Shown: positions 5,071 to 49,263 of the stretch, piece after piece | Layout: each line of letters opens with the position of its first letter | Position numbering within the stretch: the first letter of the stretch is position 1 | Assembly: GCA_023105745.1 (NCBI GenBank) | Contig: JALGQZ010000011.1 | Coordinates: 24,501,975 to 24,565,974 of the forward strand | DNA from: Austropuccinia psidii | Lineage: Eukaryota; Basidiomycota; Pucciniomycetes; Pucciniales; Sphaerophragmiaceae | Length of the DNA stretch: 64,000 nt | Direction: 5' to 3' | Notes under the pieces: generated by a model | Database searches by the model: none | What the model was told of the DNA's origin: nothing | What the model saw: only the letters and a program-made list of their open reading frames with translations | Made by a program: the position numbers and the translations under genes

Positions 5071-7326
5071 TTACCAGTTTGGGAAGTGGGTATCCAGATA
5101 GGTTCTGGCCACTATGGAGCAGTGTGCTCCACTATCAATGATCAGTGGATGCTGAGCATTGTCAATACAAACAGTCATTTTTGTGGCTGTCCCATGTATA
5201 TATGCCATTCCTTTGGTTGGTGTAACCAGGAATGTTTGTGCATCTTGTGTGTGTTTGCACAAGTTCTTGTTAGCAGTGTCCTGTGGCATGCCTGCTTCCA
5301 ACTGTATGTCCTGGATTCTCAGTGGGGTTTCCTCTTGGTATTCCACTAGAAATTCCTCTCTTGGGTCTTGATCATCCTCAGATGGTTCTCTGATGGCATC
5401 ACCCATGGAGTCTGAATCAGAATCCTCTGTTGGAGGTTCTTCCTCAGGGACTTTCTCTATGGCATAGACTTTTTTCTTTGCCTTTGGACAGTTGTTGGCA
5501 TAGTGGTCTATTGAACCACAATTGTGACAATAATTCCTCTTCTTTGCCACTTCTGCCACCCTTTCTTTGGGTTTGTCCTTAAACTCTACCCTGAAAGGTT
5601 GTTTCTCTTTAAAACTACTGCTCTTATATGGGGTGAATTTCCCTATATTAGTCCTTTTCCTTATGTATTGTAAGGTGTTGACAATGTCATCTAGAGTGCA
5701 ATTCTGGTTGCATCTGCATTTTACTGCATGCTCTAGCTCTCCTGGCAATTGTGTCAGGAGTTTGTGATTCCTCATTTGGATGTTCATCTGAGGATCAATG
5801 GCTTTAAGTCTTTTAGACTGTCTAAGACACCACTCATATGGATCTTTGTCCACAGAGTATTTGTCATTTTCAAATGACATGTTCTTTTGCCATATCCAAG
5901 TTCCATTACTGTACTTTTGGATGATTTGACTCTTCCACCATGGCCAGTTTCTTCTACCATGGATTTCTTTCATTTCTGTGTACCATATACTAGCATGACC
6001 TTTAAATGCAGTATTCAATCTAGCAGTGATCCAGTAGTCTGGTATGCTTGGTACATCAATGAAGAGTACATCAATATAATCTATGAGCTCCATATGATCA
6101 TATTCTCCTGATCCAGAGTATTTGGGCCAGTTTGAGGCCTCAGGAAGCTGCTTCAAGGCTTCCTTCTCTGAATAAGACATGCCATCTCCATCCTGGTATT
6201 GTGATGGAGATCTCGCCTTATTCAACAACATGGCATCTGGTTTGATGTCATATGGTTGATATGGATTCTCCATAGCTTGGCCTTGTGGTTGGGGCTTCAA
6301 GCTATGATAGGCATTAAACAATTTGTTAATGTCTTGATCCATACACTCCCTGTCCCTTGTGCTGTGGTGTTGTTCTTCAAAGACTATATTCAGTCTTTTG
6401 TTGGTTTCTTCAGAGGCTTTGCTCAGTTGAGCATATCCTTATTGAAGATTCTTAACTATTTGTTCCAAGGAGGGTTGAGTTTGTCTCATCCTCTCTTGGC
6501 TAGCTTTAATTTCTGCAAACTTCTTTGTAGATTTTTCAGCATATTGGGACATTTGTAACCACAGTGTATCACTGTTGATGTTACTCTCAGATGTGACAAT
6601 GTTATTTTCAGTCTGAGTGGGGGTAATGTTTCTATTACTAGGACTACTGATTCTAGAGTGGTTTACAACTACTTCTGGTTCTTGTGTACTTCTTTTACGA
6701 AATCTAACAGCTTCTGGATCATGGGGTCTGACTCTTTCCTCCTCTGGTTGAAGGAGGCTTTGTTCTTGCCCTTGTTTCCCTGTCTTCTCCTGGAAACTTC
6801 CTGGAATTGTGAAGAATGGTGACTCTTGGCCACTGATCTGCTGGTTTCTGAATGGTGTGAAGCCACTGGAGAGCTGATTTGGCCTGCTCCTTGTGAACCT
6901 GAAGGAATCTGAGTAGGCCCTGTCTGGGTTAATTGTTCTTCTATTGCTTGGATAGTGGCTTGATTCTCCCTTATCCTCTGTGCCCTTGCCTCCAGGAGTC
7001 TGTGCTGCCTGGTAGGATTCCAACCTTTGGTGATTACCATAAGGTCTTTGAAGTCTATCTCTTTGAGACAGATCTTCTGGCAACTTGATCCAAGTTCTGC
7101 CCAGTGAGTTGCTAGGTTGAACCTCTTGTTGTCCATGCTCCATTGAAATATATCTTTGAGGAGTTGGTGGAGCTGAAGAACTTGATCCATATCCTTCCAG
7201 TCCTCTGGTTTGAGGTTTCTGTTGCATTGGAGTGTGAATGGCAAGGTTGATATTATCTCCCTCATTGTTTTGCCATCCACCACTGTGTCCAAGGTGTCTT
7301 ATTTCAGGTCTTCCGGTTCTGGACAA
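5071..7326 (-). pseudogene. gag: Element 1 gag-protease (frame A), one internal stop
   Basis: Structural Gag with the start of retropepsin. Continuous frame from about 7369 to 5074 broken only by TAA at 6438-6436. The N-terminal 295 residues are Ser/Pro/Gln-rich and low-complexity, followed by a short helical segment (AEKSTKKFAEIKASQERMRQ). The capsid-like part (LPEASNWPKYSG, HASIWYTEMKEI, WQKNMSFENDKY) precedes an intact zinc knuckle CHNCGSIDHYANNC, then an acidic linker and the protease active site LIIDSGAHCS (Asp-Ser-Gly at 5136-5128). No ATG opens frame A in this copy; the family probably starts just inside the upstream intron. It overlaps frame B (6669-7369) on the same strand. Gag, protease and RT share a frame, so no programmed shift is needed between them. 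Confidence 0.85.
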
Positions 7327-7369
7327 TCCTTCTCTGTCCTCTGGCTGGTTCCTTTGGAAGCCAAGATTT
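6669..7369 (-). CDS. Element 1 overlapping frame B (possible spliced accessory ORF)
   Basis: A second long frame fully overlapping gag frame A, offset by one base. From the acceptor at 7371-7370 it reads ILASKGTSQRTEKDCPEPED, meets one TAA at 7301-7299, then stays open for 207 codons to 6669. Content is more protein-like than frame A: helical segments (TMREIISTLPF, WKDMDQVLQLHQLLKDIF, NLATHWAELGSSCQK), then basic GNKGKNK and a terminal amphipathic helix (MIQKLLDFVKEVHKNQK). The exon at 7718-7438 ends in phase 1 and joins this frame exactly. Elements 2 and 4 have the same offset and order. Function unknown; whether it is translated is inference. It has one stop in this copy. Confidence 0.5.
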
Positions 7370-7718
7370 CTGAGGTATGCAGGGGAAATATCAGTGTTTG
7401 CAAGCAGTCAAAAAATTTATGTTCTTAGGGTATTTACCTTTGACTGTGCCTTGTACAAATTTGTTATCTGCTGATTTGGGCAGTTTGCCTTTGGAGGTTA
7501 CAACTGGGTTAATAATTGTAATCTTCCCTGTACAAGTGGTTAAGGTTGGTTTACCTTGTATTGAAGCAGAATTTCGTGGTTTGCTACTCCTCTGAGTGGC
7601 TATTGGTGTCCACTTTTTGGCTGTAATGAGGCCTTCAATAAGTCTTTTTCCCTTGCCCTTGCTGCCCTCTGGTTCTGAGGGTGTGACTGGTTTTCAAGTG
7701 GTATGAAGTTTTCTTCCA
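7370..7718 (-). other. Element 1 leader exon (7718-7438) plus GT-AG intron (7437-7370)
   Basis: After an acceptor-like ttgattcag at 7719, the leader holds open sequence (ENFIPLE..., then after a frame change KPVTPSEPEGSKGKGK ... GKLPKSADNKFVQGTVKG) that ends at a donor GTAAAT (7437). The next acceptor, ctcag at 7371-7370, gives a 68-bp intron. Exon end phase is 1, matching frame B. A frame change inside the exon shows decay. A good donor GTAAGT lies at 8264, close to the primer-binding site, so an upstream intron is also plausible. Confidence 0.5.
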
Positions 7719-8310: not shown

Positions 8311-9740
8311 TATCAGGCTGAGTCTATATTGAAGTGGTAATAAGGGTATTTACAACTAGAATTATGACTGTGACACATAGAAAATTGATTTAAAATAAGG
8401 GTTTTTGGGTTTTTTAAAGATGATTTATAATATAATAAGGGGTTCTACTATGGTAATAGTGGTGGTGAGCACTATTGAGAACCCAGGGTGCAATCTTACC
8501 AGTTGGGTTACTATAATAAGAGTTACAATAATTAAATATATAATTATACCTGTTTATTACCCAATAGTATAACTGTTTTTGACAGTTTACTACGTAGGGT
8601 ATTCAAGAGCAGGATGAGGAGACAATTCTGGCTGTGAAAAGCCTCCTTTTTATCCTGAAATGGGGTGGAAAGGGTGCTAGACCTTTCCACGTAGAGGAAG
8701 TGAAGATTTTTTCACTTTCTAGTACTGGTTTGTGGCTTGCAAACAGCCTGTGTAGCCTGTATTGGGCTCAGATGTGGTTTTGAAACCACACCTGGGCGGT
8801 TTTCACCAATACATGGTGAAAATTTTCATCTGGGGACCTCACAGCCCGATTCTGACGTGTATGACGCGTAGAATGCTGTACAGAAACTGTATGGGACCCC
8901 AGTATTGACTGACATATGAGGTATTGAAGTAAAAACGTGCTTCTTTGTCTCTTTGACACCTCATATTCATGATTATGGGATATTATCCCATGGTAAGGCT
9001 GTATATGACAGCAGGTGGGATTTTAACCTTAAAACAGCCATAACTTTGTCAATTCTTGAGATATCAACCTCAAAATAGGTTCAGTGTGTAGCCCTGTATT
9101 CGCCCTACACAATGATACCTCATTTGATCTGGGTATCATTAACTATGGCAAAGGTATCCCATGTACAAGATTTTTGTACATTTGCGTATTTTAGGCAAAG
9201 AGCTGTATTGAGCTTGTTTGCCCCATAACTTCTGCAGTAGTTGAAATATGAGGAAGTGGGAGACACCATCAGATAGCCCTGATTGTGCGCTTTCCAAAAA
9301 GACCCCACTTCAGCTATCCCACACTAAAACTGTAGAAGTTAGATGAGAGGTGAATGTTTTGTTCACCCTTATTTGGCCTGAAATTGACCATAACTACAGT
9401 AATATTGGTGCTAGCTCAGTTTGGCTGGTACCATTGGATAGCCCTGGCTTAGAGCTTCATTTTGAGTACCCATTTGATGGGGTTAAGCCTCTCCTTCTAG
9501 ATTTTAGATGAGAGGTGAAAATTGAGGTTTATGCTCAGCAATAACATTGAGCAGGAATAACTTTGTTATTTCTAGTCCTATGGTGATGGGACTTATATTT
9601 TCAGGAAGAGGTGAGTTTCCTCTTTCTTTTGATACCTTTTGAGCTGATTTGGCTCAGCTCCATGTTTTTGTGGTATCTTGGCTATACCATTGGTTTATGG
9701 TATTTTGGCTGTCATGCTTGTGCTCTGGTTTTGAGTCACA
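8311..9740 (-). repeat. 5' LTR of element 1 (about 1.43 kb)
   Basis: Minus-strand sequence begins TGTGACTCAAAACC (9740) and ends about 8311, just before the primer-binding site. A diverged copy of its first 630 bp lies at 22622-23252 in the same orientation, supporting the outer boundary. The inner end reads GATA rather than CA, probably decay. No 3' partner is present. Confidence 0.65.
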
Positions 9741-10655
9741 GGCTGACAACACTGTTCAAATAGGTTTTAACACTATTCAAATAGGTTTTAACACTGTTCA
9801 AATAGGTTTGAACACTGTTCAAATAGGTTTGAACACTGTTCAAATAGGTTTGAACACTGTTCAAATAGGTTTGAACACTGTTCAAATAGGTTTGAACACT
9901 GTTTAAATAGGTTTGAACACTGTTCAAATAGGTTTGAACACTGTTCAAATAGGTTTGAACACTGTTCAAATAGGTTTGAACACTGTTCAAATAGGTTTGA
10001 ACACTGTTCAAATAGGTTTGAACACTGTTCAAATAGGTTTGAACACTGTTCAAATAGGTTTGAACACTGTTCAAATAGGTTTGAACACTGTTCAAATAGG
10101 TTTGAACACTGTTCAAATAGGTTTGAACACTGTTCAAATAGGTTTGAACACTGTTCAAATAGGTTTGAACACTGTTCAAATAGGTTTGAACACTGTTCAA
10201 ATAGGTTTGAACACTGTTCAAATAGGTTTGAACACTGTTCAAATAGGTTTGAAAACTGTTCAAATAGGATTGAACACTGTTCAAATAGGTTTGAACACTG
10301 TTCAAATAGGTTTGAACACTGTTCAAATAGGTTTGAACACTGTTCAAATAGGTTTGAACACTGTTCAAATAGGTTTGAACACTGTTCAAATAGGTTTGAA
10401 CACTGTTCAAATAGGTTTGAACACTGTTCAAATAGGTTTGAACACTGTTCAAATAGGTTTGAACACTGTTCAAATAGGTTTGAACACTGTTCAAATAGGT
10501 TTGAACACTGTTCAAATAGGTTTGAACACTGTTCAAATAGGTTTGAACACTGTTCAAATAGGTTTGAACACTGTTCAAATAGGTTTGAACACTGTTCAAA
10601 TAGGTTTGAACACTGTCCAAATAGGTTTGAACACTGTTCAGATGGGTTTGAACAC
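9741..10655 (+). repeat. Tandem array A, left arm: 21-bp minisatellite, about 43 units
   Basis: Near-perfect head-to-tail units built on GAACACTGTTC followed by AAATAGGTTT. The core is an 11-bp dyad with one central base. Very few substitutions between units, unlike the right arm. The 21-bp period keeps several frames open by itself, so the long ORFs over it are not evidence of coding. Confidence 0.97.
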
Positions 10656-11600
10656 TGTTCAAACAGTGTTCAAACCTATTTAAACAGTGTTCAAACCTAT
10701 TTGAATAGTGTTCAAACCCATTCAAACAGTGTTCAAACCTATTTGAATAGTTTTGAACAGTGTTCACAGTGTTCAAACCTATTCAAACAGTGTTCAAACC
10801 TATTTGATCAGTGTTCAAACCTATTTGCACAGTGTTCAAACCTATTTGATCAGTGTTCAAACCTATTTGAACAGTGTTCAAACCTATTTGAACAGTGTTC
10901 AATCCTATTTGAACAGTTTTCAAACCTATTTGAACAGTGTTCAAACCTATTTCAACAGTGTTCAAACCTATTTGAACAGTGTTCAAACCTATTCAAACAG
11001 TGTTCAAACCTAGTTAAACAGTGTTGAAACCTATTTGAACAGTGTTCAAACCTATTCAAACAGTGTTCAAACCTATTTGAACACTGCTCAAACCTATTTG
11101 AACCATGTTCAAACCTATTCAAACAGTGTTCAAACCTATTTGAACAGTGCTCAAACGTATTTGAACAGTGTTCAAACCTATTTGAACAGTGTTCAAACCT
11201 ATTCAAACAGTGTTGAAACCTATTTGAACAGTGCTCAAACCTATTTGAACAGTGTTCAAACCTATTTGAACAGTGCTCAAACCTATTTGAACAGGGCTCA
11301 AACCTATTTGAACGGTGTTCAAACCTATTTGAACGGTGTTCAAACCTATTTGAACATTGTTCAAACCTATTTGAACATTGTTCAAACCTATTTGAACATT
11401 GTTCAAACCTATTTGAACATTGTTCAAACCTATTTGAACATTGTTCAAACCTATTTGAACAGTGCTCCAACCCATTTGAACAGTTTTCAAACCTATTTGA
11501 ACAGTGTTCAAACCTAATTGAACAGTGTTCAAACCTATTTGAACAGTGTTCAAGCCTATTTGAATAGTTTTCAAACCTATTTGAACAGTGTTTAAAGTGG
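10656..11600 (-). repeat. Tandem array A, right arm: same 21-bp unit inverted, about 44 units, diverged
   Basis: Units read AAACCTATTTGAACAGTGTTC-like, the reverse complement of the left arm. The switch is near 10650-10670. Variants include GCTCAAAC, GATCAGTG and a run with GAACATTG at about 11355-11455. Left and right arms together make an inverted repeat of about 1.85 kb. Confidence 0.95.
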
Positions 11601-11654
11601 TTTTAAATAAACCATTGCTTGAGTTCAGTCAGATTACTGTTTTTTTTCCAATCT

Positions 11655-12985
11655 ACATAATGAAGCACTGATTCTCCGTGTTGTGAGACTTATCCCTCAT
11701 GATGAGAATTTGATTGCACTAGATGGAAAATTGATCAAAAAATGCTGACCAGTTGATTTCTCATGACAAAGAATTGATACCCCATGATGCAAAATTGATT
11801 CCATATAATGAAGCACAAATTCCACATTATGAGTAATTGATTTCACATGATGGCAAATGGATTCCACATGATGAGGAACTGATTTCTCATGATGGAAAAT
11901 TGATTTGAAATTATGGGAAATTGATTCCACATGATGAGGAATTGGTTCCACATGTTGGGGAAGACATGATAAGGAATCATTTCCACATTATGAGGCATCA
12001 TTTTCACATGATGAGGCATCAATTCCACATGATGAGGCATCAATTCCACATGATAAGGAGTCAATTCCACATGATGAGGCATTGATTTCACATGATGGGA
12101 AACTGATTTCACATGATGAGGAATTTCTCTTTCATTATTGGCAATTGATTTCACATGTTGGGGAGTTGATTTCACATGGTGAAAAATTGTTATCCCATGA
12201 TGATGAATTGATTACACATGATCAGAAATTTATTCCACATGATGAGGAGGCAATTTCGAATGATGAGAAATTGATCACAAATGATGAGAAATTGATTTCA
12301 CATGATGGGGAATTGATTTCACATCATGAGGAATTGATTCCACATGATGGGAAATTTATTTTACATTATGAGGAATTGATTCCACATGATGGGGCATTGA
12401 TTTCACATCATGAGGAATTGATTCCACATAATGGGAAATTTATTTCACATTATGAGTAATTGATTCCACATGATGGGGCATTGATTTTACATCATGAGGA
12501 ATTGATTCCACATGATGGGGCATTGATTTCACATCAAGATGAATTGATTCCACATTATGGGCAATTGATATCACATCATGAGAAATTGATTTCTCATGAT
12601 GGGGAATTGATTTCACATGATGGGAAATTGATTTCACATGATGGGGAATTGATTTCACATGATGGGGAATTGATTTCACATGATGGGGAATTGATTTCAC
12701 GTGATGGGGAATTGATTTCACATGATGGGGAATTGATTTCACATCATGAGGAATTGATTTCACATCATGAGGAATTGATTCCACATGATGAGGAATTGAT
12801 TTTACATGATGAGGAATTGATTTCACATGATGAGTAATTGATTCCACATGATTAGGAATTGATTCCACATGATGAGGAATTTATTTCACATGATTCTCAG
12901 TTGATAACCAATGGTGGGGAATTGATAGCCCAAAATTAAAATTTGATCCCTCATGATGAGGAATTGATATACCAATTCAAACTTT
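11655..12985 (+). repeat. Tandem array B: 21-bp minisatellite, about 60 units
   Basis: Units of the form TTGATTTCACATGATGGGGA plus one base, or a TTCCACATGATGAGGAA variant, often alternating as a 42-bp pair (about 12290-12540). The core at 12590-12740 is nearly perfect; the edges are diverged. ORFs of the LISHDGE / IPHHVKS type are products of the period. Confidence 0.95.
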
Positions 12986-13195
12986 GATTGGTAATACATC
13001 AAACTTTGGTTGATTTTACATCAACCTATGGTTTATTTTACATCAACCTATGGTTCTTTTTACATCAACCTGTGGTTGATTTTACATCAACCTATTGTTG
13101 ATTTTACATCAACCTATGGTTGATATTACATCAACCTATGTTTGATTTTACATCAACCTATGCTTTATTTTACATCAACAACCTGAGGTTCATTT
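12986..13195 (+). repeat. Tandem array C: 22-bp repeat, about 9 units
   Basis: Units contain ATCAACCTATGGTTGAT (7-bp arms, 3-nt loop) followed by TTTACAT-like spacer. It starts directly at the end of array B with a transitional ATCAAACTTTGGTTGAT unit. Confidence 0.9.
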
Positions 13196-13364
13196 AAAAT
13201 TAACCATTCCACTGTTTCTGTAATAGAAATTATTCCATCACATCTATATAGGCTTATTAAAAATCACATGGGGAATAGATAAACACATAAATGTGATTTA
13301 AAATGAACCAAAATTTTGTGATGTGACATCACATGGGACTTGGTAATGGAATAATGCAGGCAGT
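13196..13364. other. Spacer between arrays C and D
   Basis: Non-repetitive, no ORF. Contains a hairpin TGTGATG-TGA-CATCACA at 13317-13333 and inverted ATTATTCCAT / ATGGAATAAT near its ends. A related GATGT...ACATGGG stretch recurs near 14430-14455 after array D. Confidence 0.5.
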
Positions 13365-14285
13365 GATTAAATAAAACATTGGTTTATATTAAATAAACCA
13401 TCGCTTTATAGTAAATAAACCATTGGTTTATATTAAATAAAACATTGGTTTACCTTAAATAAACCATTGCTTTATATGAAATAAAACATTGGTTTAAATT
13501 AAATAAAACATTGATTTATATTAAATAAACCATTGCTTTATAGTAAATAAACCATTGCTTTATATTAAATAAACCATTGCTTTATAGTAAATAAACCATT
13601 GCTTTATATTAAATAAAACATTGGTTTACATTAAATAAGCCATTGCTTTATATTAAATAAACCATTGGTTTAAATTAAATAAAACATTTGTTTATATTAA
13701 ATAAACTATTGCTTTATAGTAAATAAACCATTGCTTTATATTAAATAAAACATTGGTTTACATTAAATAAACCATTTCTTTATATAAAATGAAACATTGG
13801 TTTACATTAAATAAAACATTGATTTATATTAAATAAACCATTGCTTTATATTAAATAAAACATTGGTTTACATTAAATAAAACATTGATGTATATTAAGT
13901 AAACCATTTTCTTATAGTAAATAAACCATTGCTTTATATTAAATAAAACATTGGTTTACATTAAATAAAACATTGCTTTATATTAAATAAAAAATTAGTT
14001 TACATTAAATAGAACATTGACTTATATTAAATGAACCATTGCTTTATAGTAATTGAACCATTGCTTTATAGTAAATAAACCATTGCTTTATATTCAATAA
14101 AACATTGGTTTACATTAAATAAAACATTGATTTATATTAAATGAACCATTGCTTTATAGTGAATAAACAATTGCTTTATATTAAATAAAACATTGGCTTG
14201 CATTAAATGAAACATTGGTTTATATTAAGTAAACCATTGTTTTATAGTAAATAAAGCATTGGTTTACATTAATGGTTTACATTAG
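13365..14285 (+). repeat. Tandem array D: about 22-bp repeat, about 42 units
   Basis: Units of TTAAATAAACCATTGCTTTA type with an ATTGGTTTA variant that alternates as a 44-bp pair. The variant core TAAACCATTGGTTTA is a dyad apart from its central base. Moderate divergence throughout. Confidence 0.93.
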
Positions 14286-14461
14286 GTCAGGAAGCCAGGG
14301 TTTATTCAAAATAAATCATCATATGGATGACATATAATTAACCCATTTCATCACCTTCTTTTAATTTTATCATAAATCACCATCTGATTGAATCAGAAAA
14401 TTCTTGTTTATTTAAAATAAAACAAATTGATGTGACTTGATGTCACATGGGTCATGTTTAC
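14286..14461. other. Junction between array D and element 2
   Basis: No gene. Holds a GATGTGACTTGATGTCACATGG inverted-repeat-like stretch resembling 13315-13340, then TTTCAG and the broken end of element 2 pol at about 14462. Confidence 0.4.
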
Positions 14462-16051
14462 ACATTATTTCAGGTATAATATTATACCACCCAGTAGGTA
14501 AAATCTTTCTTCATCATAGATTTTTCCATACTTCATCCAAGGAATGTATTAGAGGGTTGTCTTTACAGTCTTTGTTAAGTAATTGTCATAAGATGCTACA
14601 ATTCCTATCTTGAGTATAACTGTGTCTTAATTCTTCAAAGAAGGTGGTGTTCAAGTCTGTAACACTTATTACTTCTATTGGGATCTGTGGTGAAGCTTCT
14701 TCTGGAACATAAGCAGGATTATCAATATTATTTGGTAATGACCATCTGCTTAGTCCATCTGCATTCTTACAAATATTCCCATCCTTATGAATAATAGTCA
14801 TATTGCCTCTGTATTCTTGTATGGCTATTTGCCATCTGAGCATATGTCTGTTGGGTGTTTTCATGTTTAAAAGTTATTTGACAGCTGTACAATCTGTTAT
14901 CACCTCAAAAACACATCCCTCTAAGAAGTAGTTCAATTTCTCCAAGGCCCAGACAAGGCATAGACATTCCATTTGTCTTTCTCCATATCTGGCTTCAGTT
15001 GGTTTGATTTGCCTGGATATGAAACATATGGGTCCTTCTACAGGTTTATCATTTATGATCTGAACTTGGTGAAGTGCAGCACCCAGCCCATCCCCTGATG
15101 CATCAATATACAATTTAAAAGGCAATTTAAAGTCTGGCATCAGTAAGAGTGGAGCAGTGTTCAAGGCTTCTCTTAGAGACTCAAAAGCTTTGACTCTGTC
15201 AACAGTAATTTCAAATACTGTGTCTTTGTCACAAAATTTATAAAGTGCTCTTGCTATGGATGCAAAATCTTTAATTTGTTGCCTGTAATATCCTGCAAAA
15301 CCTAAAAATGACTGAATTTCCTTTTTGTTCTGAGGTATGGGTTTTAGCAATACTGCTGAAACTTTGTTTTTGTCAATTCCAAGGGACAAACCAGATACAA
15401 CATGTCCTAGTTCCTTAAGTTCTTTAAATCCAAAATGGCATTTCTTCAAGGAGATTTTCATGTTTACTGATAGAATTTTTGTCAAAACTCTGGACAATCT
15501 GTACATGTGCTCTTCCCAAGTCTTGGAACAGACGATAATTTCATCAATTTAAATAATTAACCATCCCTCTGAAAGCTCTTCAGGGAAGATTTCATTCATC
15601 ATTCTTTGGAAGTGTGAGGGTGCATTCTTGATACCAAAGGGCATTCTTAAATATTCATACACTCCACAATGAACAATAATTCTCAAATATTTTCTTGCTC
15701 TTGGTGTCACCACATTTTGATGGAATCCTTTAAGGCATCCATAGTGGCTATATACACTGCTTGAGATATTTGGGTGAGGGCAATTTGGATTTTTGGTATT
15801 GGGTATCTGTCTGGAACAGTGTAAGTCTTTAGAGCTTTAAAGTCCCCAACCGTTCTAGATTTTCCATTATGCCATGCCACTATGACTGGTGTAGTTATTT
15901 CTACTTCTTCATTGTGGCCTACTTTTCTTATTACACCAAGGTCCAGAAGTTCTTTGATATGAATTTCTAGAGCTTCTCTTGATTTTGGACTTGCTGGATA
16001 TGCAGGTCTTCTTAAGAGTGGTGGATAAGGTCTCTTAATGTTATCAAACGC
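14462..16051 (-). pseudogene. pol: Element 2 pol: reverse transcriptase and RNase H
   Basis: RT segments: RPAYPASPKSREALEIHI, VGHNEEVEITTPVI, GDFKALKTYT, MDALKGFHQ-like, [18 protein letters not shown]. The catalytic YxDD box is destroyed: codons at 15551-15540 read stop-Ile-Asp-Glu. Downstream ORFs 15506-14874 and 14864-14586 carry [51 protein letters not shown] and [19 protein letters not shown] (RNase H). After the [11 protein letters not shown] stretch the reading continues through a short linker to about 14462 and stops. Integrase zinc finger and core are absent. Frame matches gag capsid (17711) although the protease between is shifted. Non-functional. Confidence 0.85.
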
Positions 16052-17816: not shown

Positions 17817-18962
17817 TTATAATTCTGTTTGTTTAGTATTATCAGAGATAACCTCTTTTAACTTTATTGTTAATTTTGATATTTCCTCTTTTGAGGTATC
17901 AAAGCACTTTTTCAAGGCAATTATATGTGTCTTTACTTCAGTAAATGATTTTGAAATATCATCAAGAGCTTTCTTATTATCCTCTTTGATAGTATTTATG
18001 GCTTGTTTTATTCTTGTTTCAATCATGTCATCAATATTTAATTTAGAATATCTGTCTGTCAATTCTTTAATAATGGCAGATTGTTCATTTATCTTATTGC
18101 CAAAAGAATTATCATTATTGGAAGTTTTAATTGTTCTTAAAACTCTTTCAAAAAATTTAAGTGCTTCATTGATTTGGCTCAGACTCAAGTCATGTGTTTT
18201 AAGATTTTCACAAATTGATGTATTTTTATCAGAAAGATGACTTTTTATGTCAGTTATAGCTTCATACAGCTCTGGAATATAATCAAAAATATCAGAAATC
18301 ATTTCTGATATTTTAATATAGCCTCCTCTTTCTTTTGTAATTCCATCATTGTTCTGGCCATCTGAAACACATTTTCCATGGCATCCTGTTGAATTTTTGG
18401 GATCCTGTAGCCCTGGCTGTAAGGTTTGGTGGCTGGTGCCTTTCCTTTGCCCTTGTTTGGAGCTTGTGACTGCCTTTTCACGTCGGAATTGCTTCTTCTG
18501 GCCACTGGGGCTGTTTTTGGCACTTGCTTGGGTGGTGGAGGGTTGTTTTTCCTCCATTCTAGTCTCAAGAGCATCATTTTTTTCTTCTCCATCAATGGAT
18601 GCCATCCATTGAGTAATTTGCAAGTATTGGGATGGCCCAGGAATTTTCTCACAGTCAGGTAAGAATTCATACAGTTTTTCCACAGATCTGCAAGGATTTG
18701 GTCCTCCTTGTACTGCAGGGCATTGCTGTAAGCTTTGTGGCTGGCTTTGTATATGAAAAATGAGGCTTCTTGTGGCAGTGTCAGCTCTTTGTGAAGGTAA
18801 AATGGTATTATAAGCATCAGAATGACCTATTTTAGTTGTTTGGAAATCATCAACTGACCCTTTTCCTTCTGTACCTGGTTGGCTTCTGCCATAATCACAT
18901 CTATTACCTTTCTGGGAGCTGCTTGAGGGGTTATAGCTGGCTCCTGATCTAGTTGAGGGCAT
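17817..18962 (-). CDS. gag: Element 2 gag N-terminal region (frame A)
   Basis: 381 codons from ATG at 18962. The first 200 residues are Ser/Gln/Lys-rich and low complexity (MPSTRSGASYNPSSSSQKG). The remainder is a long heptad-type coiled coil (ISDIFDYIPELYEAITDIKSHL, LSQINEALKFFERVLRTI, KALDDISKSFTEVKTHI), likely for Gag oligomerisation. In frame with capsid after two stops. The ATG is 14 nt before the acceptor at 18950-18949, so it would be removed if the upstream intron is spliced. Frame B overlaps its first two thirds. Confidence 0.65.
   Translation of the reverse strand: MPSTRSGASYNPSSSSQKGNRCDYGRSQPGTEGKGSVDDFQTTKIGHSDAYNTILPSQRADTATRSLIFHIQSQPQSLQQCPAVQGGPNPCRSVEKLYEFLPDCEKIPGPSQYLQITQWMASIDGEEKNDALETRMEEKQPSTTQASAKNSPSGQKKQFRREKAVTSSKQGQRKGTSHQTLQPGLQDPKNSTGCHGKCVSDGQNNDGITKERGGYIKISEMISDIFDYIPELYEAITDIKSHLSDKNTSICENLKTHDLSLSQINEALKFFERVLRTIKTSNNDNSFGNKINEQSAIIKELTDRYSKLNIDDMIETRIKQAINTIKEDNKKALDDISKSFTEVKTHIIALKKCFDTSKEEISKLTIKLKEVISDNTKQTEL
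18299..18948 (-). CDS. Element 2 overlapping frame B (possible spliced accessory ORF)
   Basis: Offset +1 from frame A. From acceptor 18950-18949 it reads QEPAITPQAAPRKVIDVIMA, meets one TAG just before the 172-codon ORF (18817-18299), and ends LQKKEEAILKYQK-stop. Its C-terminal part has basic NKGKGK, then PYSQGYRIPK and a helix VFQMARTMMELQKK. Element 4 frame B has PYTQSYTIPK and FNMARTL, and element 3 has VFQMARNLIEIQKREE, so the frame is conserved. The leader exon (19210-19013, phase 1) joins it in frame. Frame B ends before the coiled coil and capsid. Function unknown; translation is inference. Confidence 0.5.
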
Positions 18963-19210
18963 ATTTTATGATTAAAAAGGCTTAAAATAGTATTTTTACA
19001 TCAAAAACTTACTATTGGCCAAATTCTTAGCTTTCTGAAGGGTATTACTTATATCCAAGTTAATCAATTCAGAAGATATTGGTTCAGGTTGGTTATTTTG
19101 AGTCACAATAACAGTACTATTACGGTCTGAATTAACAGTACTGGCAGGGATAATGCTGGTGATTGTTGAGGCTGTTTCAATGTTTTCTTGTCTTAACACG
19201 TTGTCAGACA
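18949..19210 (-). other. Element 2 leader exon (19210-19013) plus GT-AG intron (19012-18949)
   Basis: Flanked by an acceptor ttgattttag (ending 19211) and a consensus donor GTAAGT at 19012. The exon is open for about 66 codons (SDNVLRQENIETASTIT ... LQKAKNLANS) and ends in phase 1; it also enters in phase 1. The 64-bp intron ends CTCAACTAG at 18949 and contains the ATG of frame A. Confidence 0.6.
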
Positions 19211-19417
19211 CTAAAATCAATTAAAAAGCCAATTATTCAAGTAGAAAAAAGTTTATTTCAAAAAAAGAAATAAAAATATAAGCCTCACTTATAATATGAA
19301 AAAATTATTTTTTTATGGGTTTTTTGAATTATAAGTATTTTTTATATCTTTTTTAAATTTTTCAATATAAGAAAAAAGCTTAAAAAAGAGTAAAGAAATA
19401 TGTCACAGGTAAAATAT
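19211..19417 (-). other. Element 2 leader between primer-binding site and leader exon
   Basis: AT-rich, no coding signature; probably a first intron, but I could not place its donor with confidence. Confidence 0.3.
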
Positions 19418-19433
19418 CATGGCTGGGCCCCCA
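19418..19433 (-). promoter_or_regulatory. Primer-binding site of element 2
   Basis: Minus-strand TGGGGGCCCAGCCATG, two nt after the LTR end (TTACA). Same position and near-identical sequence to element 1; a decayed form follows the element 4 LTR at 30830. Confidence 0.65.
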
Positions 19434-19435
19434 AA

Positions 19436-21245
19436 TGTAAGGTGTGGATATCAAACTTTGATTAAAAATCAAGTACTTTTCCTGTCCTCAAAATTTATAT
19501 AAGGTAAAAAATCAATTAAAAATAGTAAGAAATATTATTTTTAAGAGAAAACATGCCAATTTCATTGTTTATAACTTTATTAGTATAAAACAATAATATT
19601 ATAAAGATTTATTGTTTTACCAACAATAAAAATTTATCCAAAAATACTCTACAGGAGATATTTTAGGCTACAAAAGAAATTTCATCAAGAGCAATTTCAA
19701 ATGGAATTAATTGAGCAAAGAACTGCAAGAAATTAATTAAAGAACAAAGCCTTTAAAAAGAATATTAAAGAGAAAACACACCCAAAAGTGACCAGAGTGA
19801 ATTTGGAAACAAAGTGACAAAGCTTACAGTGATGAAAGATGCTTTAATTCACTTTTGGGATGGTTCAGGGGTAAAAAATGATTATAAGAGTTACAAACAA
19901 AGATTATAATGATTTTTTCACGTGGTTAGAAGGTCTAAAATGATTCAAAAAAGGTGGTTGGAATCTTTTACTGGTTGGTTTAACAGTGTTTAAACTAATT
20001 ATAAAAGGAAAAGATTCTAACATGAAGAGAAAAGTGGGGCAAAGAAGACATTCTTTTATAGCCATCAATTTTCTTACTCCAAAAGTAAAGTTAACTCTTG
20101 TCAGTCGTGAAAAGAAGTCTGACAACAGAAAAGCCTATTATGGCATCATTGAACCCTGGTTTAAACCAAAAAAAGGGCTGGTTTAAGCCATTTTTGCCAT
20201 TTTAGACTCTTAAATCAGCCATTACTATAGTAATACCTGGTCTAGAGCCTTCAAAACAAGTCAGAATGTGTGTACAAGGTTTGGAAACCAGTTAAAACTG
20301 TTTCTACTAACATTTCTTTAACTTGAGGGTAGTTTTACCCTCTTGGCAACAGTTAAAACTTCCCTGGTTGGTATCAAAACCTCATCATCAATTGAGTCAC
20401 AGACCCTGTGACTCAATTCCAGGCCAAAAGTGATTAACTTTTGCGTGAATTTTGACATCTAACGCCTGGAAGCAGGGATTTTGGGGGTCTGGCTCCCCCT
20501 TAGAGCTAGAGTTCCTTTTCCCCCCAACTTATTTTTTCCTTTAATTCCTCATCATGTATTATACTTGTAATTTACATATGTAATTCAATTGATTTGTACA
20601 TTACAATAGAGTAATAATTGATATCTCATATGTAAATCAAAGTTCACTTATGTAATACACGCGCACATTTTGACATTTCAATTGAATTCAATTGAAAATA
20701 CTTCAATTCCTCATAACTTCTAAACTAAACAAAACACCTCAATTTTAACACAAAAATTGATGGTTAACACCACATGTGGTGTGAGTTAAATTAAAGTTTT
20801 GAGGATTTTCAATTTTTGTATTGAAAATACTGAAAACTTCATTTAAGCTTATTTAGAGTTGAGTTACAAAAATTTCACTCAGAGGTGACCCCACCTAATT
20901 TTTTATAAGGAATCAAATGGTGAAGTAATTTTCATATGTTTATTTATTGGATAAAAATCTATGATATATTTCATATAAATTTTTACCAAAAATATTTTAA
21001 TTTCATAATTTTTAAAAAATTCATTTTTACTTAATTTTCACAAGTAAAAATGAATTTTCATAATTTTAAATTTTATTGTAATTTTATTTTTAAATTATAA
21101 TTAAATTTTGATTTTTAAATATAAATTTGTATTTATATTTCAATTTTTCTTTTTATAATATAAATAAATTTATTTTATTTATATTTGTATTTTAATTTAT
21201 CATTTGTGGTCTTTTGGGTATATAAAAATACTTCCAAGGCTCACA
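19436..21245 (-). repeat. 5' LTR of element 2 (1.81 kb, LTR family A)
   Basis: Minus strand begins TGTGAGCCTTGGAAG (21245) and ends CACACCTTACA (19436). A plus-strand third copy at 54195 starts with the same TGTGAGCCTTGG right after a polypurine tract, confirming the 5' boundary. The middle (20860-21200) is very AT-rich. Confidence 0.8.
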
Positions 21246-22621
21246 GAAGTTGTTAATATTTTCTATATGAAAATATGAAAATCCTCAAAACCTTGATTCA
21301 ATTCCCACTACATGTGGTGTTAGCCATAAAATTTTCTGTCAGGATTAAGGTGTGGTGTGTAACTTAGAATTTATGAGGAATTGAAGTATTTTCAATTGAA
21401 ATCTCAAAATGTGCATGTGTATTTCATAAGTAAACTTGGATTTACATATGTGGAATCAATAATTGCAGTTTTTTACTGTGATTTTTGCATTGAATTAAAT
21501 ATTTAAAATCCTGGTATAGTATATGACGATGAGTTAGAGAAAAACTAAATTGGAAATATTAGTTTTGGAGGGAAAGGAAGCTTGGCTCCAAGCATGTCAG
21601 ACTCCCCCAAACTCCTTGCTAACTGGCATGAGATGCCAGAATTCATGAAAAAGCTCATTAACCTTGGCTTGGAATTGAGTCACAGGGTCTGTGACCAAAT
21701 TGATGATGAGGTTTTGATACCAACCAGGGCAGTTTCAACTCTTTCCAAGAGGGTAAAACTACCCTTAGGCTGAAACAGTCTTATTAAAAACCATTTTAAC
21801 TGTTTTTGAGGTCCCTTACACACATTCTGACATGTATTTAAATTTTGGAACCAGGTATTACTATAGCAATGACTTATCTTAAGGACTAAAATGGCCAAAA
21901 CCAGCCCTTTTTCAGTCTAAACCAGGACTCAATAATGCCATAATTTGCCCTTCTGTTGTCAGAGTGCTTCTCACGACTTATTAGAGTAAAAGTTACTCTT
22001 GGAGTAAGAAAATTTGTGTCTTTAAAAGAAGGTCTTCTTTGCCCCACTTTTTTCTTTATGTTGGAATTTTTTTCTTTTATAATTAGTTTAAACACTGTTG
22101 AGCCAATCAATAAAAGAGTCCAACCACCTTTTTTAAATAATTTTGAACCTTTTAACCAGGTCAAAAATAATAATAATCTTCTTTGTAACTCCTATGATAA
22201 ATTTTAACCTTGAACCAGCCCTGGAGTGAATTAAAGCATCTTTCATTACCTTTAACTTTGTAAATTTGTTTCCAAATTTACTCCAGTCACTTTTGGGTGG
22301 GTTTTCTCTTTAATATTCCTGTTAAATACTCTGTTTGTATATTAATTTCTTGCAGTCCCATTGGAATTTCTCTTGAAGAAATTTCTTTTGTAGCCTCGAA
22401 TATCTCTTTTAGAGTATTTTTGGATAAAGTTTTATTGCTGGTAAAACAATAAATCTTTTAAATTTTCTTGTTTTATACTGAAAAAGTTAAAAACAAATTT
22501 GGCATAGTTTTCTTCAAAACAGTTAAACTTTACTGTTTTCAATGAAATTTTACTTTATACAAAGTTTGAGGACAGGAAAAGTACTTAATTTCTACTCAAA
22601 CTTTCATATCCATACCTTATA
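21246..22621 (+). repeat. LTR family A, plus-strand copy lacking its first part
   Basis: Inverted copy of 19436-20830: shares the CATGTGGTGT, TGCATGTGTATT, CAAGAGGGTAAAACTACC, CCAGTCACTTTTGGGTGG and AAGTACTTTTCCTGTCC-type blocks, ends TACCTTATA (TTACA in element 2). Its missing 5' part begins exactly at the 5' end of the element 2 LTR, as if element 2 interrupted it. Confidence 0.75.
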
Positions 22622-23252
22622 TGCACAATGGTACTTGATTTGTTATGGGTATCATTAAATATGGCAAAGCTATGCTACTTTTAATTTTCATCATTCAGAT
22701 ATTCATTTTTTGAATCCTGTATGGAGTTTTTTGGCTCAATAACGTTTGGTCTAGATCCGTTATGAGGGAATGGATGGCAAAATCAGATATTGCTTATTGG
22801 TTTCTTTCCAAAATGACCCCACTTTTGGTATCTCACACTAAAACTGCAGAAGTTAGATGGTAGGTGAATATTTTTTCAGCTAACATCTGGCTTAATTATT
22901 TCCATAACCTCTGTAGTGTTCATGCTAGCTTGATTTGTACAGTAAAATTGGATTTCCCTGACTGTTTGCTTAAATTTGAACACCCATTTGATGGGCTTCA
23001 ACCTCTTTCTCTTGATTTTAGATGGCAGGTGAAATTTAAGGTTTATGCTCAGCTCTTGCTTTGAGAAGGAATAGCTTTTTTATCCTCTGTCTTATGGCTA
23101 TGGGAGTTATATATTTGAAAATAGGTGTTTTTCCTCTTTATTTTAATACCTTGAAGAGCTTTTTTGGCTTAGTTCCATTTTTGGTGGTATTTTGCTCTAC
23201 CATTGGGTTATGGTAATTTAGTGTCATGCTTGTGCTCTGGATTTGAGTCACA
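22622..23252 (-). repeat. Partial copy of the element 1 LTR
   Basis: Matches 9107-9740 in the same orientation with many substitutions and no large gaps: GGGTATCATTAA, AAACTGCAGAAGTTAGATG, TTGATGGG, and the shared end GTGCTCTGG-TTTGAGTCACA. The rest of that LTR is missing; element 3 gag remnant follows directly. Confidence 0.75.
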
Positions 23253-31536: not shown

Positions 31537-32132
31537 AAGTGGAATAGAGTACTCAAACCAATCAAATAGATCTGGACCAGGACATTCAAGTCATAAATCA
31601 AAAATACAAGAATGTCAGCCCAGAGGAGAGGCACAAATGCAAGGTTCCAGAACTTCCACCCATTCCCAAAGTATCCAGCACCTTTTAAATTCCTATTGAT
31701 AGTCCAGAAGCTGGCATAATTTCTATTAATGTTGTCAGACCTGAATCATTTCCAACAGGCAACAATAGAGATATACCAGTCTCAGTACAAGAACTAGTTT
31801 ATGGCAGGAAAGTAACAGGAGTGGGAGCTTCTTCCAAGTCTTTGGATAGGCAAAATGAACTCTTATCTTCAAGTGAAGAAGTTCATTCTTGCAGAAAAGA
31901 CAGAGGATCTTATGAGGGGTTGGACACCCATCTCTTGCAAAGGAAAAGTCCAACAGAAAAAAGCTTGGTTGAAAAACCAAAGTATTCTGTCAGAGGACCA
32001 GAAGTAGAAGTTGCCCCAAGCAATGGACAAAATCCCAGTGGAAGATCTTCAATCCTCCATAAGGAGGAATCTGCACTAACAAGTGCCAAACAAGGACAAG
32101 AAATCCCAAAAGAGAAATCAGAAGGCCAATAA
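31523..32132 (+). pseudogene. gag: Element 4 gag N-terminal region (frame A)
   Basis: Starts MTPSRSGIEYSNQSNRSG, equivalent to MPSTRSGASYNPS of element 2. Open to about 31697, then shifts by one base and continues in ORF 31821-32132 (SLDRQNELLSSSEEVHS, RKDRGSYEGLDTHLLQRK, KQGQEIPKEKSEG). Low complexity, Ser/Glu/Lys-rich. The same one-base indel moves frame B equally, so their offset is preserved. Coiled-coil region downstream (32270-32550) is badly decayed. Confidence 0.6.
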
Positions 32133-32268
32133 AAAGCAAAAGTCCAAGTCAAACAAGCCTTACACTCAGAGTTATACAATTCCAAAGAGAGAAAAGACAG
32201 CCATGGACAGTTTGTTCAATATGGCAAGAACTCTGATTAATTCAAAAACAAGAAGGAATAAGGAATGA
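31537..32268 (+). pseudogene. Element 4 overlapping frame B
   Basis: Joined in frame to the leader exon: from 31537 it reads KVE, a TAG, then STQTNQIDLDQDIQVINQKY and onward, with a TAA near 31695; after a one-base indel it is open at 32083-32268 (NKDKKSQKRNQKANKK, PYTQSYTIPK, DSLFNMARTLINSK). The last part aligns with element 2 frame B. Two or more stops, so this copy is dead, but the frame relation to A is unchanged. Confidence 0.45.
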
Positions 32269-35931: not shown

Positions 35932-36821
35932 AAAGACAGTAAACTGGAAATAATTAAGACATGTGCTTGGCTTCCATCTTGGAGAAAATATGTTATTGAG
36001 TACTGTCACAGTTGTGAAAGGTGTCAAAAGGCCAATAAAGCTACTGGTAAAATATTTGGTTCAATGATTCATTACCAAGAACCAAGTACCCCATGGGAAG
36101 TGGTTCATATGGATTTGTTAACTGCCTTAGAACCTGGTGGTGAAAAAATTTACAATGCATGTCTTGTTATTTTGGACAGGTACAGAAAAACACCAATCCT
36201 TTTACCATGTTATAAAGATGACACAGCCATGGATACAGCTCTTTTAATTTGGAACAAAGGAATATCACATACTGGTCTCTTTAAAGACATCATTAGTGAT
36301 AGAGACCCAAAATTTAAATCAGCCTTATGGACAAATCTACATAAGCTTTTGGGTACAGAACTATCATTCTCAACAGCTTACCATCCACAGCCTCATGGAT
36401 TAGCAGAGGGAACAATCCAGACCCTTGAGGAAATTATCAGAATATTTTGCTCTTATGGCTTGGAGTTTAAAGATTCTTATGGCTTTACCCATCATTGGTG
36501 AACACTTATACCAGCATTGGAATTAGCCTACAACACTTCTATCCATGCTTCAACAGGAAAACCTCCTGCAATGTTAGAAAAAGGATGGAACCCCAAAATT
36601 CCAGTTGATATTTATCCATCTTCTTCAAGATTTAAGCTATTGATTGATTAATTCAGGAATCATGAAAATCAAATCATAACTGATGCATTTAAATATGCTA
36701 AGCAAAGTGGGATAAAAGCCATCAAACCCCAGAATTCAAATTAGGGTACTTTATACTAGTTTCAACCTTGAGCTCTAATAATATTAAAGGTCAAAAGAAA
36801 TTGAAATATTCCTTGGCACAA
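35932..36821 (+). pseudogene. Element 4 integrase (interrupted by element 5)
   Basis: Zinc-finger half keeps CERCQKAN; the second His is lost ([13 protein letters not shown]). The catalytic core is intact by residue: VVHMDLL (Asp), ISDRDPKF (Asp), HGLAEGTIQ (Glu), ORF 36064-36501. A TGA follows HHW, then ALELAYNTSIHAST, EKGWNPKIP and the start of the C-terminal domain up to 36821, where element 5 is inserted. The remaining domain is at 51513-51902. Confidence 0.8.
36818..36821 (+). other. Left target-site duplicate of element 5 (ACAA)
   Basis: ACAA immediately before TGTGG of the left LTR; repeated at 51509-51512 directly after the right LTR. Confidence 0.75.
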
Positions 36822-37319
36822 TGTGGTATTCCATACCATGAGTATCAGCTTCAAGCTTACCAATAAAACAAAAAAATGGTAATAAAACAAATTACACAAA
36901 ACATATTCACACATTAAAACAACAGGTTTCAAACAGAAATATAAGATACAAAGCTTCAAGATCTTATCAAAACAGTATAGTATCAAAGGATATATCCACC
37001 TTATCGCATCATCAATAACAAATTACGTCATTAAAGGCAGTTAATCTAAATAAAGGTATATAAAGATGGACAAAAGCATCAGAAGCTGTATTTTCCCCAC
37101 CTTGATTCAATTGAAAGAAGAAATACCTCAAGGCTATGCATAAAATTACAATATATTCTCCAAGAACAAATGTTTGCTTAGTAATAATGACACGCATCAA
37201 ACTTGATATAAATGATGGAATATCCATATGAAATGATACAATAGTAAAACAGAAACATTAGCATAATTCTCTCATAAATATGTAAAAATAGTAACAAAAA
37301 ATAGTTTCCCCACCTTCAA

Positions 37320-38035
37320 GAAAACATCACCAGCTATATTATCTCAATGACCTCACATGATTCTGATAAAAAGAAACTCTCACCAGCAAAATTATCTCAA
37401 AGACATTACATGATTTTGATAAGAAACAGAAACACCAGCATAATTTTCTCATATATATCATATGACTAGAAGAAAGTTCAATTGTCAGGAGCTGTATTTT
37501 CTCCACTTTCTTGGCAAAAAAGAAAATCTCACCAGCCAAATTATCTCAAATACATCACATGATTTTGATAAGAAAAAGCACCACCAGCATAATTCTCTCA
37601 GAAAATACATAACAAAGTCACCAAAAATGTAAGTGTCACCAGCAAAATTATCTCAAAGAAATCACATGATTTTGATAAGAAACAGAAACACCAGCATAAT
37701 TTTCTCATATATATCATATGACTAGAAGAAAGTTCAATTGTCAGGAGCTGTATTTTCTCCACTTTCTTGCCAAAAAGAAAATTCCACCAGCCAAATTATC
37801 TCAAATACATCACATGATTTTGATAAAGAAAAGAACCACCAGCATAATTCTCTCATAACATACATAAAAATAGAAACAAAAAATACTTTCACCACCTTCA
37901 AGAAAACATCACCAGCCATATTTTCTCAATGACCGCACATGACTCTGATAAAAAGAAAATCTCACCAGCCAAATTATCTCAAATACATCACATGATTTTG
38001 ATAAGAAAAAGCACCATCAGCATAATTCTCTCAGC
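37320..38035 (+). repeat. Degenerate tandem blocks inside the element 5 LTR
   Basis: Blocks of about 80-190 bp alternate ATCACATGATTTTGATAAGA, CACCAGCATAATTCTCTCA and TCACCAGCCAAATTATCTCA. The same blocks occur in the right LTR (49690-50580) with a different arrangement, which accounts for the LTR length difference. Confidence 0.8.
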
Positions 38036-38239
38036 AAACACGTTGCTTTACCAAAACTACACGTCTCACTAGCTAAAACCTCTCAACTATGATTTTTTCT
38101 AAGTACCCTGTTTTGAGAAGCTCTATGGAGGCCCAAAAGCTAAAAATAGAGGTCCTCTCTCTCTCATTTTTCCCATAATCATGGAACAAGTTCCCACTAT
38201 CCAGGATCACAACCATCCCTGAACTAGCAGGATATCTAG

Positions 38240-38500
38240 AATAGTAGTAGTGCTTTAGTAGTGAAAAGCTCAGTAGCCTTGCTCAATAAGCTTAGTATTA
38301 GTGAAGAATAGTAGTATAACCGTAGTAAAAGCTCAGTAGCCTTGCTCAGTAGCTTAGTATTAGTGGAGAATAGTAGTATAACCGTAGCGAAAGCTCAGTA
38401 GCTTAGTATTGGTGAAGAATAGTAGTATTAACGTAGTAAAAAGCTCAGTAGCCTTGCTCAGTGGCTTAGTATTATTAAAAAAAAGTAGTAGTGATATAAA
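38240..38500 (+). repeat. About 60-bp tandem repeat in the U3/R part of the element 5 LTR
   Basis: Four units around GCTCAGTAGCCTTGCTCAGT plus AGCTTAGTATTAGTGAAGAA plus TAGTAGTATAACCGTAGT. The right LTR has three units (50785-50985). Lies just downstream of the TATA-like site, so probably transcribed leader. Confidence 0.8.
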
Positions 38501-39029
38501 ACTCAGTATTAAAAGAAAGAAATTTCAAAAGAATCAAATCCAGTAGTCTTATTATTAGTACTCATATCAAAAAAAAAATCATTATAATCAACCTAAACCA
38601 TAAAAAAAAAATATATTCTTATCATTGTTATCAAAAAAATAAACAAAAGAAATATTCTTATTATTTTTATTAAAATAACAGAAACCCATAACATATATAT
38701 ATATTATCATCACTTTTATTAAAATAAAGTAAAAAAAATCTTAGTGTTTATTTTACCAGAAATTTTAGATCAGAGTTTTTACTGTAGTGTTATTGATAGG
38801 TCTGATTTAGAGACTGCTGATAAGTCTTCTCTATCTGTTAAAGCCACAAATCTTATTTTATTTTGTGATTCTCTGTAGGCTGACTATTCAGTATTATTTA
38901 GAGGGGCAGCTAATACACCTTAGCACCCATGGTTGTTGGACAATTCTGAAATTCAAAACAGACTTACCAATAATTTCCCCCTGAAGGTACTGCCTTATTT
39001 CATCCCACACCAAAAGGAGTTCCCACATC

Positions 39030-49252: not shown

Positions 49253-49263
49253 GGAGAGGGGGA
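49253..49263 (+). promoter_or_regulatory. Polypurine tract of element 5
   Basis: GGAGAGGGGGA directly before the right LTR; expected primer for plus-strand DNA synthesis. Confidence 0.85.

Follow-up and report, generated by a model that had tools for sequence, protein, structure and literature searches.

Complex retroviruses produce accessory and regulatory proteins, such as Rev, from multiply spliced RNA and in frames that overlap their structural genes. To our knowledge, this form of gene expression, in which a spliced regulator overlaps Gag and unspliced RNA needs to leave the nucleus, is mostly known from animals. In Cer1, a Gypsy/Ty3 element of Caenorhabditis elegans, a spliced mRNA gives CERV, a novel protein partly in a frame other than gag, and the unspliced RNA gives Gag and Pol, according to its description (PMC10309623). 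Here we analyzed a stretch of 64,000 nucleotides (nt) from Austropuccinia psidii (assembly GCA_023105745.1, contig JALGQZ010000011.1, positions 24,501,975 to 24,565,974 of the forward strand), hereafter the window, whose minus strand carries a Gypsy element designated E2. The analysis leads us to propose that this element very probably chooses between two overlapping frames by alternative splicing of its 5′ region, the unspliced RNA giving Gag and the fully spliced RNA giving a second protein, B.

In the proposed mechanism, unspliced RNA would be scanned, past few or no earlier ATGs, to an ATG located in intron 1, from which Gag would be translated in frame A, on towards the capsid region. Removal of introns 0, 1, and 2 would take away this Gag ATG and create an ATG at the junction of exon 0 and exon 1, from which B would be made. 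The parts of the 5′ region are listed here in the order of transcription, with reference to two intronless copies, L075 and L076, that are described below.

19436 to 21245, minus strand: 5′ long terminal repeat (LTR); the LTR homology of L075 and L076 starts at 21246/21245, and the LTR ends with ...TTACA before TTTGGGGGCCC.
19289 to 19435, minus strand: exon 0, non-LTR part; a 5′ leader with a putative primer-binding site, its edge taken from the intronless L075 and L076.
19289, minus strand: last base of exon 0, an A, serving as the A of the B start codon.
19211 to 19288, minus strand: intron 0, 78 nt, GTGAGG...TTTTAG; exactly absent from L075 and L076.
19013 to 19210, minus strand: exon 1 (leader exon), encoding the N-terminus of B after TG; its fixed differences are 8 synonymous and 0 non-synonymous.
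18949 to 19012, minus strand: intron 1, 64 nt, GTAAGT...CTAG, holding the Gag ATG; absent from L075 and L076.
18960 to 18962, minus strand: ATG of frame A (Gag), found only in RNA with intron 1 unspliced; its first two bases are intact in 67 of 68 copies.
18859 to 18948, minus strand: exon 2 of B; 9 of the 120 listed O181 gene models of B use the leader/exon 2 junction (motif count).
18787 to 18858, minus strand: intron 2, 72 nt (a multiple of three), GTCAGT...CAAAG; absent from L075 and L076.
18299 to 18786, minus strand: exon 3 of B with its stop codon, overlapped along its full length by Gag frame A.
17817 to 18962, minus strand: frame A, N-terminal part of Gag, 381 amino acids (aa) to the stop in the window copy.

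A leader exon followed by a GTAAGT donor at 19012, a 64-nt intron and an acceptor at 18949, a Gag ATG at 18962 inside this intron, and entry of the spliced RNA into a frame B with one TAG that is then open to 18299 had all been claimed in the original prediction, and these coordinates were confirmed on the minus strand; the donor begins at 19012 and the acceptor CTCAACTAG ends at 18949. The intron is also more than a chance arrangement of sites, since it is precisely absent from two genomic copies, its sites are conserved, and leader and B are under purifying selection. The leader exon and this one intron are part of a larger design: intron 0, whose removal supplies the A of the ATG, and intron 2, which holds the TAG, had been overlooked. 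The open leader frame (19208 to 19014) contains no ATG of its own, and the start codon of B is built across the first junction from A(19289) and TG(19210-19209). The sole TAG of frame B in the window copy sits within intron 2, and arithmetic from the coordinates gives, after removal of the three introns, an open B of 258 codons, in which position 3 corresponds to position 1 of frame A.

The conservation of the splice sites was examined in an alignment of 70 rows, which left out L001 and L041 (window copy), L079-L084, and 7 duplicate loci. Among the copies with letters at the respective sites, intron 0 retains GT in 65 of 67 and AG in 63 of 69, and intron 1 retains the donor GT in 66 of 68 and the acceptor AG in 67 of 68. 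A second AG lies 5 nt past the intron 1 acceptor (18949 and 18944; CTAG/ATCAG/) and would link the leader to frame A. A leader in frame with B in other subfamilies was considered and rejected, as it reflects a variable length of intron 1 in single copies and not a different gene. Intron 2 is open in the young subfamily and is retained in some O181 gene models; because its length is a multiple of three, B could also occur in a form longer by 24 residues.

Evidence for splicing at these sites comes from L075 and L076, which are two of eight fetched regions chosen partly for unusual matches (full-length or off-pattern) and thus not a random sample. Both match a B model along its full length, with leader and B in one ungapped frame, and alignment with intron-bearing copies showed that both are without exactly three GT-AG-ended stretches, at 19288-19211, 19012-18949, and 18858-18787. 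The edges of introns 0 and 1 are unique when the two copies are aligned with the window copy; owing to shared bases, intron 1 slides by two bases against L076's own relatives and intron 2 slides by one. L076 combines a 5′ LTR with a Gag frame of 397 aa and a frame of 632 aa that fits the reverse transcriptase pattern [YF][IVL]DD. In a tree of exon sites, built from 66 of the 70 rows with 4 left out, it is placed inside the young intron-bearing clade with a support of 1.0, its nearest neighbor being L074 at 0.019 substitutions per site. The nesting of L076, with its 5′ LTR, gag, and pol, in an intron-bearing clade indicates that spliced RNA was copied, and both L075 and L076 are read as element insertions derived from such RNA. 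In L075, leader and B are open throughout, and the LTR and the first part of gag are followed by sequence dissimilar to the element. A full-length protein search (P0193, 149 scored) gave L075 and L076 as the only single-stretch matches among those listed. A search with the junction pattern, allowing at most two mismatches, returned four matches and none for the reversed-pattern control; one of the four, L076, is a true match. L079 and L080 were taken as chance matches because they have no similarity to the element, and the fourth resembles the unspliced donor. Intronless proviruses would be without the Gag ATG, which fits the rarity of such copies.

Selection on the two frames was examined by comparing fixed differences (at least 80% in each group) between 52 copies of the window group and 11 copies of the young group, out of the 70 rows, with single-copy variants. 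The fixed differences are distributed over codon positions 1, 2, and 3 as 0, 0, and 8 in the leader, 20, 3, and 3 in the overlap, and 16, 13, and 31 in the Gag-only part. In the leader, 8 synonymous and 0 non-synonymous fixed differences stand against singletons of 27 and 83 (p = 3e-5), and in the overlap read as B the corresponding numbers are 21 and 5 against 73 and 239 (p = 7e-9). The Gag-only part (18290-17820), read as frame A, gave 26 and 34 against 56 and 251 (p = 7e-5), and three control readings were not significant (p = 0.44-0.73). Because the differences in the leader and in frame B are mostly synonymous, leader and B appear to form one conserved protein, and Gag appears to be conserved downstream of the overlap. 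In a set of 28 copies including the window copy, variants common to at least three copies fall 16, 5, and 5 times on positions 1, 2, and 3 of frame A, and variants seen once in the overlap are spread evenly over codon positions (74, 67, and 70), as expected for mutations arising after insertion. An accumulation of stops in B as fast as in an unconstrained frame, which the original prediction had named as the result that should count against it, was not what was found.

Frame A carries a different signature, namely the avoidance of stop codons. When the synonymous codons of B were shuffled over exon 2, intron 2, and exon 3, 6.4-8.5 frame A stops were expected and 0 were observed, and none of 5000 shuffles in each of four copies tested reached 0 stops across the overlap. 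In the leader, which is not overlapped by frame A, the corresponding frame has 10-12 stops versus 9-11 expected in six of six copies. With exon 3 alone, 0 frame A stops were reached in 0.02-0.16% of shuffles in four copies, and L075 has 1 stop there versus 6.6 expected. The avoidance of stops across B, but not in the leader, suggests that frame A is kept open. Of 12 copies examined, five have a frame A that runs from the in-intron ATG through 720 aa without a stop, up to the end of the locus, and in a sixth it reaches the end of a shorter locus. No other ATG comes between the LTR and the in-intron one in 9 of 11 young copies. In each of five young copies tested, the 471-472 nt preceding it contain 0 ATGs versus 6.0-6.8 expected from dinucleotide shuffles; the window copy has two short upstream ATGs before the Gag ATG (2 versus 7.4 expected). 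Frame A therefore appears to be used although its amino acids in the overlap show no constraint.

Collectively, the DNA evidence supports splicing at these sites, reverse transcription of spliced RNA, conservation of B as a protein, and a Gag frame held open across B, and both proteins are presumably made in the cell. The switch between Gag from unspliced RNA and B from spliced RNA, as originally proposed, is supported by the intronless proviruses, by selection, by the stop avoidance in frame A, and by the depletion of ATGs.

B has 258 aa and, according to a weak prediction, is mostly helical; it has a basic K/P/Q/G-rich linker, its net charge is positive in 11 of 11 sequences checked, and the basic K/P/Q/G stretch was matched by pattern in 7 of 11. 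With regard to a possible role as a nuclear protein needed for the export of unspliced genomic RNA, as for CERV and Rev, a basic linker was the sole feature noted in B. The DNA evidence, in the form of the intronless proviruses and the frame geometry, places B on spliced element RNA and in a frame other than gag, as in CERV- or Rev-like proteins. The likeliest function would be to move or spare unspliced RNA of the element itself, because the element depends on RNA with its introns retained and Cer1 meets the same problem with CERV. We tentatively suggest that, like CERV in Cer1, B may act in the nucleus to regulate the unspliced RNA of its own element.

Several observations weigh against the reading of a splice switch with B as a regulator. 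The intronless copies identified are two in all. L075 is an outlier on the tree with no sampled intron-bearing near neighbor, has lost the G of the B start codon, and has one stop in frame A; L076 carries two TAGs in B; and the junction pattern search is insensitive, since L075 escapes it. The reverse shuffling test, in which frame A was shuffled, was weaker, with 0 stops in B versus 3.4 expected and 0.44% of shuffles reaching this value. The fold model of B is of low confidence (mean predicted local distance difference test score, pLDDT, of 59). A leucine-rich export motif pattern is absent from 10 of 11 B proteins checked, and the single match, in P0127, lies within intron-2 sequence retained by that gene model. 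Comparison of B with Pfam gave no clear domain, the best weak match having E = 0.0004 in 1 of 24 members, and comparison with PDB sequences gave no relative. Selection had been looked for in both frames, and B proved constrained (p = 7e-9) and the Gag-only part as well, but the overlap read as frame A did not: 3 synonymous and 23 non-synonymous fixed differences stand against singletons of 59 and 249 (p = 0.44), with no amino-acid constraint. This suggests that the N-terminal ~220 residues of Gag are only kept open, and within the overlap the amino acids of Gag would follow those of B.

In another explanation, B is the true N-terminus of Gag, translation of the spliced RNA shifts frame near the end of B into the Gag-only part, and frame A in the overlap is a by-product. 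In the overlap, constraint is indeed much stronger on B than on frame A, and the Gag-only part shows constraint when read as frame A; however, a by-product would not need to be free of stops over the whole overlap, fewer ATGs than expected precede the in-intron Gag ATG, and frame A extends without a stop over 720 aa from there in 5 of 12 copies, so that we consider this explanation improbable. An equally small chance is given to the possibility that Gag is also made from spliced RNA, through the second acceptor 5 nt downstream that joins the leader to frame A, the switch then being a choice between tandem acceptors. This AG exists, and a leader linked to frame A in this way is seen in 4 of the 120 frame A gene models listed (motif count), but both L075 and L076 used the upstream acceptor, 56 of the 120 models start at the in-intron ATG, and the depletion of ATGs points to the use of unspliced RNA. 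Finally, the three introns could be ordinary deletions, or their absence an ancestral state, with frames overlapping by chance. Although only two copies of this kind were identified and L075 is without a sampled intron-bearing near neighbor, three GT-AG-ended deletions would have had to occur in each of two copies, one of them nested in the intron-bearing clade, and neither the selection on B nor the stop avoidance in frame A would be accounted for. Barring assembly errors in these copies, this explanation is refuted, and it is considered very improbable. The splice switch between Gag and B thus appears to be the best account of the 5′ region.

E2 is a Ty3/Gypsy LTR retrotransposon by its LTR, its gag, and its pol with reverse transcriptase and RNase H; the RNase H domains of the reverse transcriptase lie at 14874-15506 in the window. 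The window copy showed no 3′ LTR in 13001-16000, frame A had no match in Pfam, and the plasmid collection gave no match. In the genome searched (1,015,390,075 bases), a DNA search with the 912-bp region gave 7,093 first-look candidates, of which 40 were scored and found, the window copy itself excepted, to be 94-95% identical, and a protein search with B gave 39,181, of which 150 were scored; these are counts of first-look candidates, and the number of confirmed copies is a different measure. The element is very abundant in the myrtle rust genome. Three protein searches found 558, 774, and 1110 relatives, the best 120 of each being listed, and all listed relatives except P0355, which has no name, are gene models of Austropuccinia psidii MF-1 (O181_). 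In public records, both frames are represented by O181_ gene models without protein names. Of the 150 listed B matches, 59 share one identical score (332.7 bits, E 1.9e-97) and belong to the young subfamily, for example L072 in genome G000; this count, made on the scores, suggests a very recent burst of the young subfamily.

A second element on the minus strand of the window, E1 (6439-7700), was found to have a comparable organization. Its frame A (7326-6439) and frame B (7292-6669) have the same relative phase as in E2, and a 68-nt intron, GTAAAT...CTCAG, at 7437-7370 joins a leader to B, with one in-frame TAA in the window copy. Frame A of E1 contains 0 stops across B versus 7.9 expected, a value reached in none of 5000 shuffles; the reverse test, with frame A shuffled, gave 1 stop in B versus 1.8 expected and was not significant, and no frame A ATG was seen in the intron of the window copy. 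Among the 120 listed gene models of the E1 family, 36 begin with a leader-like N-terminus, and many of those displayed carry the inferred junction (motif count). A profile comparison of the E2 B family with E1 B detected no similarity. E1 thus appears similar to E2 in layout, with an unrelated B.

Further features were noted in the window. A decayed third element on the plus strand (31753-32238) has a relative of B with ~32% identity and an overlapping, almost open second frame. At 21245/21246, the 5′ LTR of the E2 element abuts, head to head and with zero bases between, an LTR-like stretch (21246-22622) of a related plus-strand element. Long tandem arrays of 21-bp and 22-bp repeats occupy 9601-12900 and 13234-14300, and the 21-bp array includes two inverted halves, with arms at 9828-10667 and 10757-11596 that are 93% complementary. 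Two direct copies of a block with internal repeats, at 36821-39027 and 49263-51508, are ~87-92% identical in aligned pieces.

In a broader and rather unlikely scenario, at least two rust Gypsy lineages with dissimilar B proteins would have in common a retrovirus-like layout, in which a spliced leader is joined to an overlapping second frame. In E2, Gag would start inside an intron and the B start codon would be made by splicing; B would be a nuclear, Rev/CERV-like regulator that lets unspliced RNA exit the nucleus. The system would have arisen independently of animal retroviruses and would have helped to fill a gigabase genome. The presence of complex retroviral expression in fungal Gypsy elements, with separate constraints on two frames and with spliced proviruses that record the splicing in DNA, would show that its logic arises outside animals, and the nuclear escape of intron-bearing retroelement RNA in fungi would become directly testable, with unusual power in a single genome that holds tens of thousands of candidate matches (39,181 for B, unconfirmed).

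In the main text of the A. psidii genome paper, the terms gag, intron, and open reading frame each have 0 occurrences (PMC8063080). No fungal description of spliced or overlapping products of LTR elements was found in the open-access literature, in a search mostly restricted to fungi and with subscription journals mostly outside it. A spliced second protein overlapping Gag would therefore be new for fungi as far as searched, with a precedent in the nematode Cer1. The resemblance to complex retroviruses that had been drawn for this locus is fair with regard to the layout, the host here being a fungus; the accessory role of B is something we infer, and a closer precedent is provided by CERV. Both Cer1 and E2 are LTR retrotransposons in which the spliced RNA would give a novel protein off the gag frame and the unspliced RNA would give Gag. 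Unlike the arrangement given there for Cer1, B of E2 is confined to the 5′ region, where it overlaps the N-terminus of Gag in another frame, its start codon would be made by splicing, and the start codon of Gag lies inside an intron. With these differences, CERV of the nematode Cer1 appears to be the nearest precedent for B.
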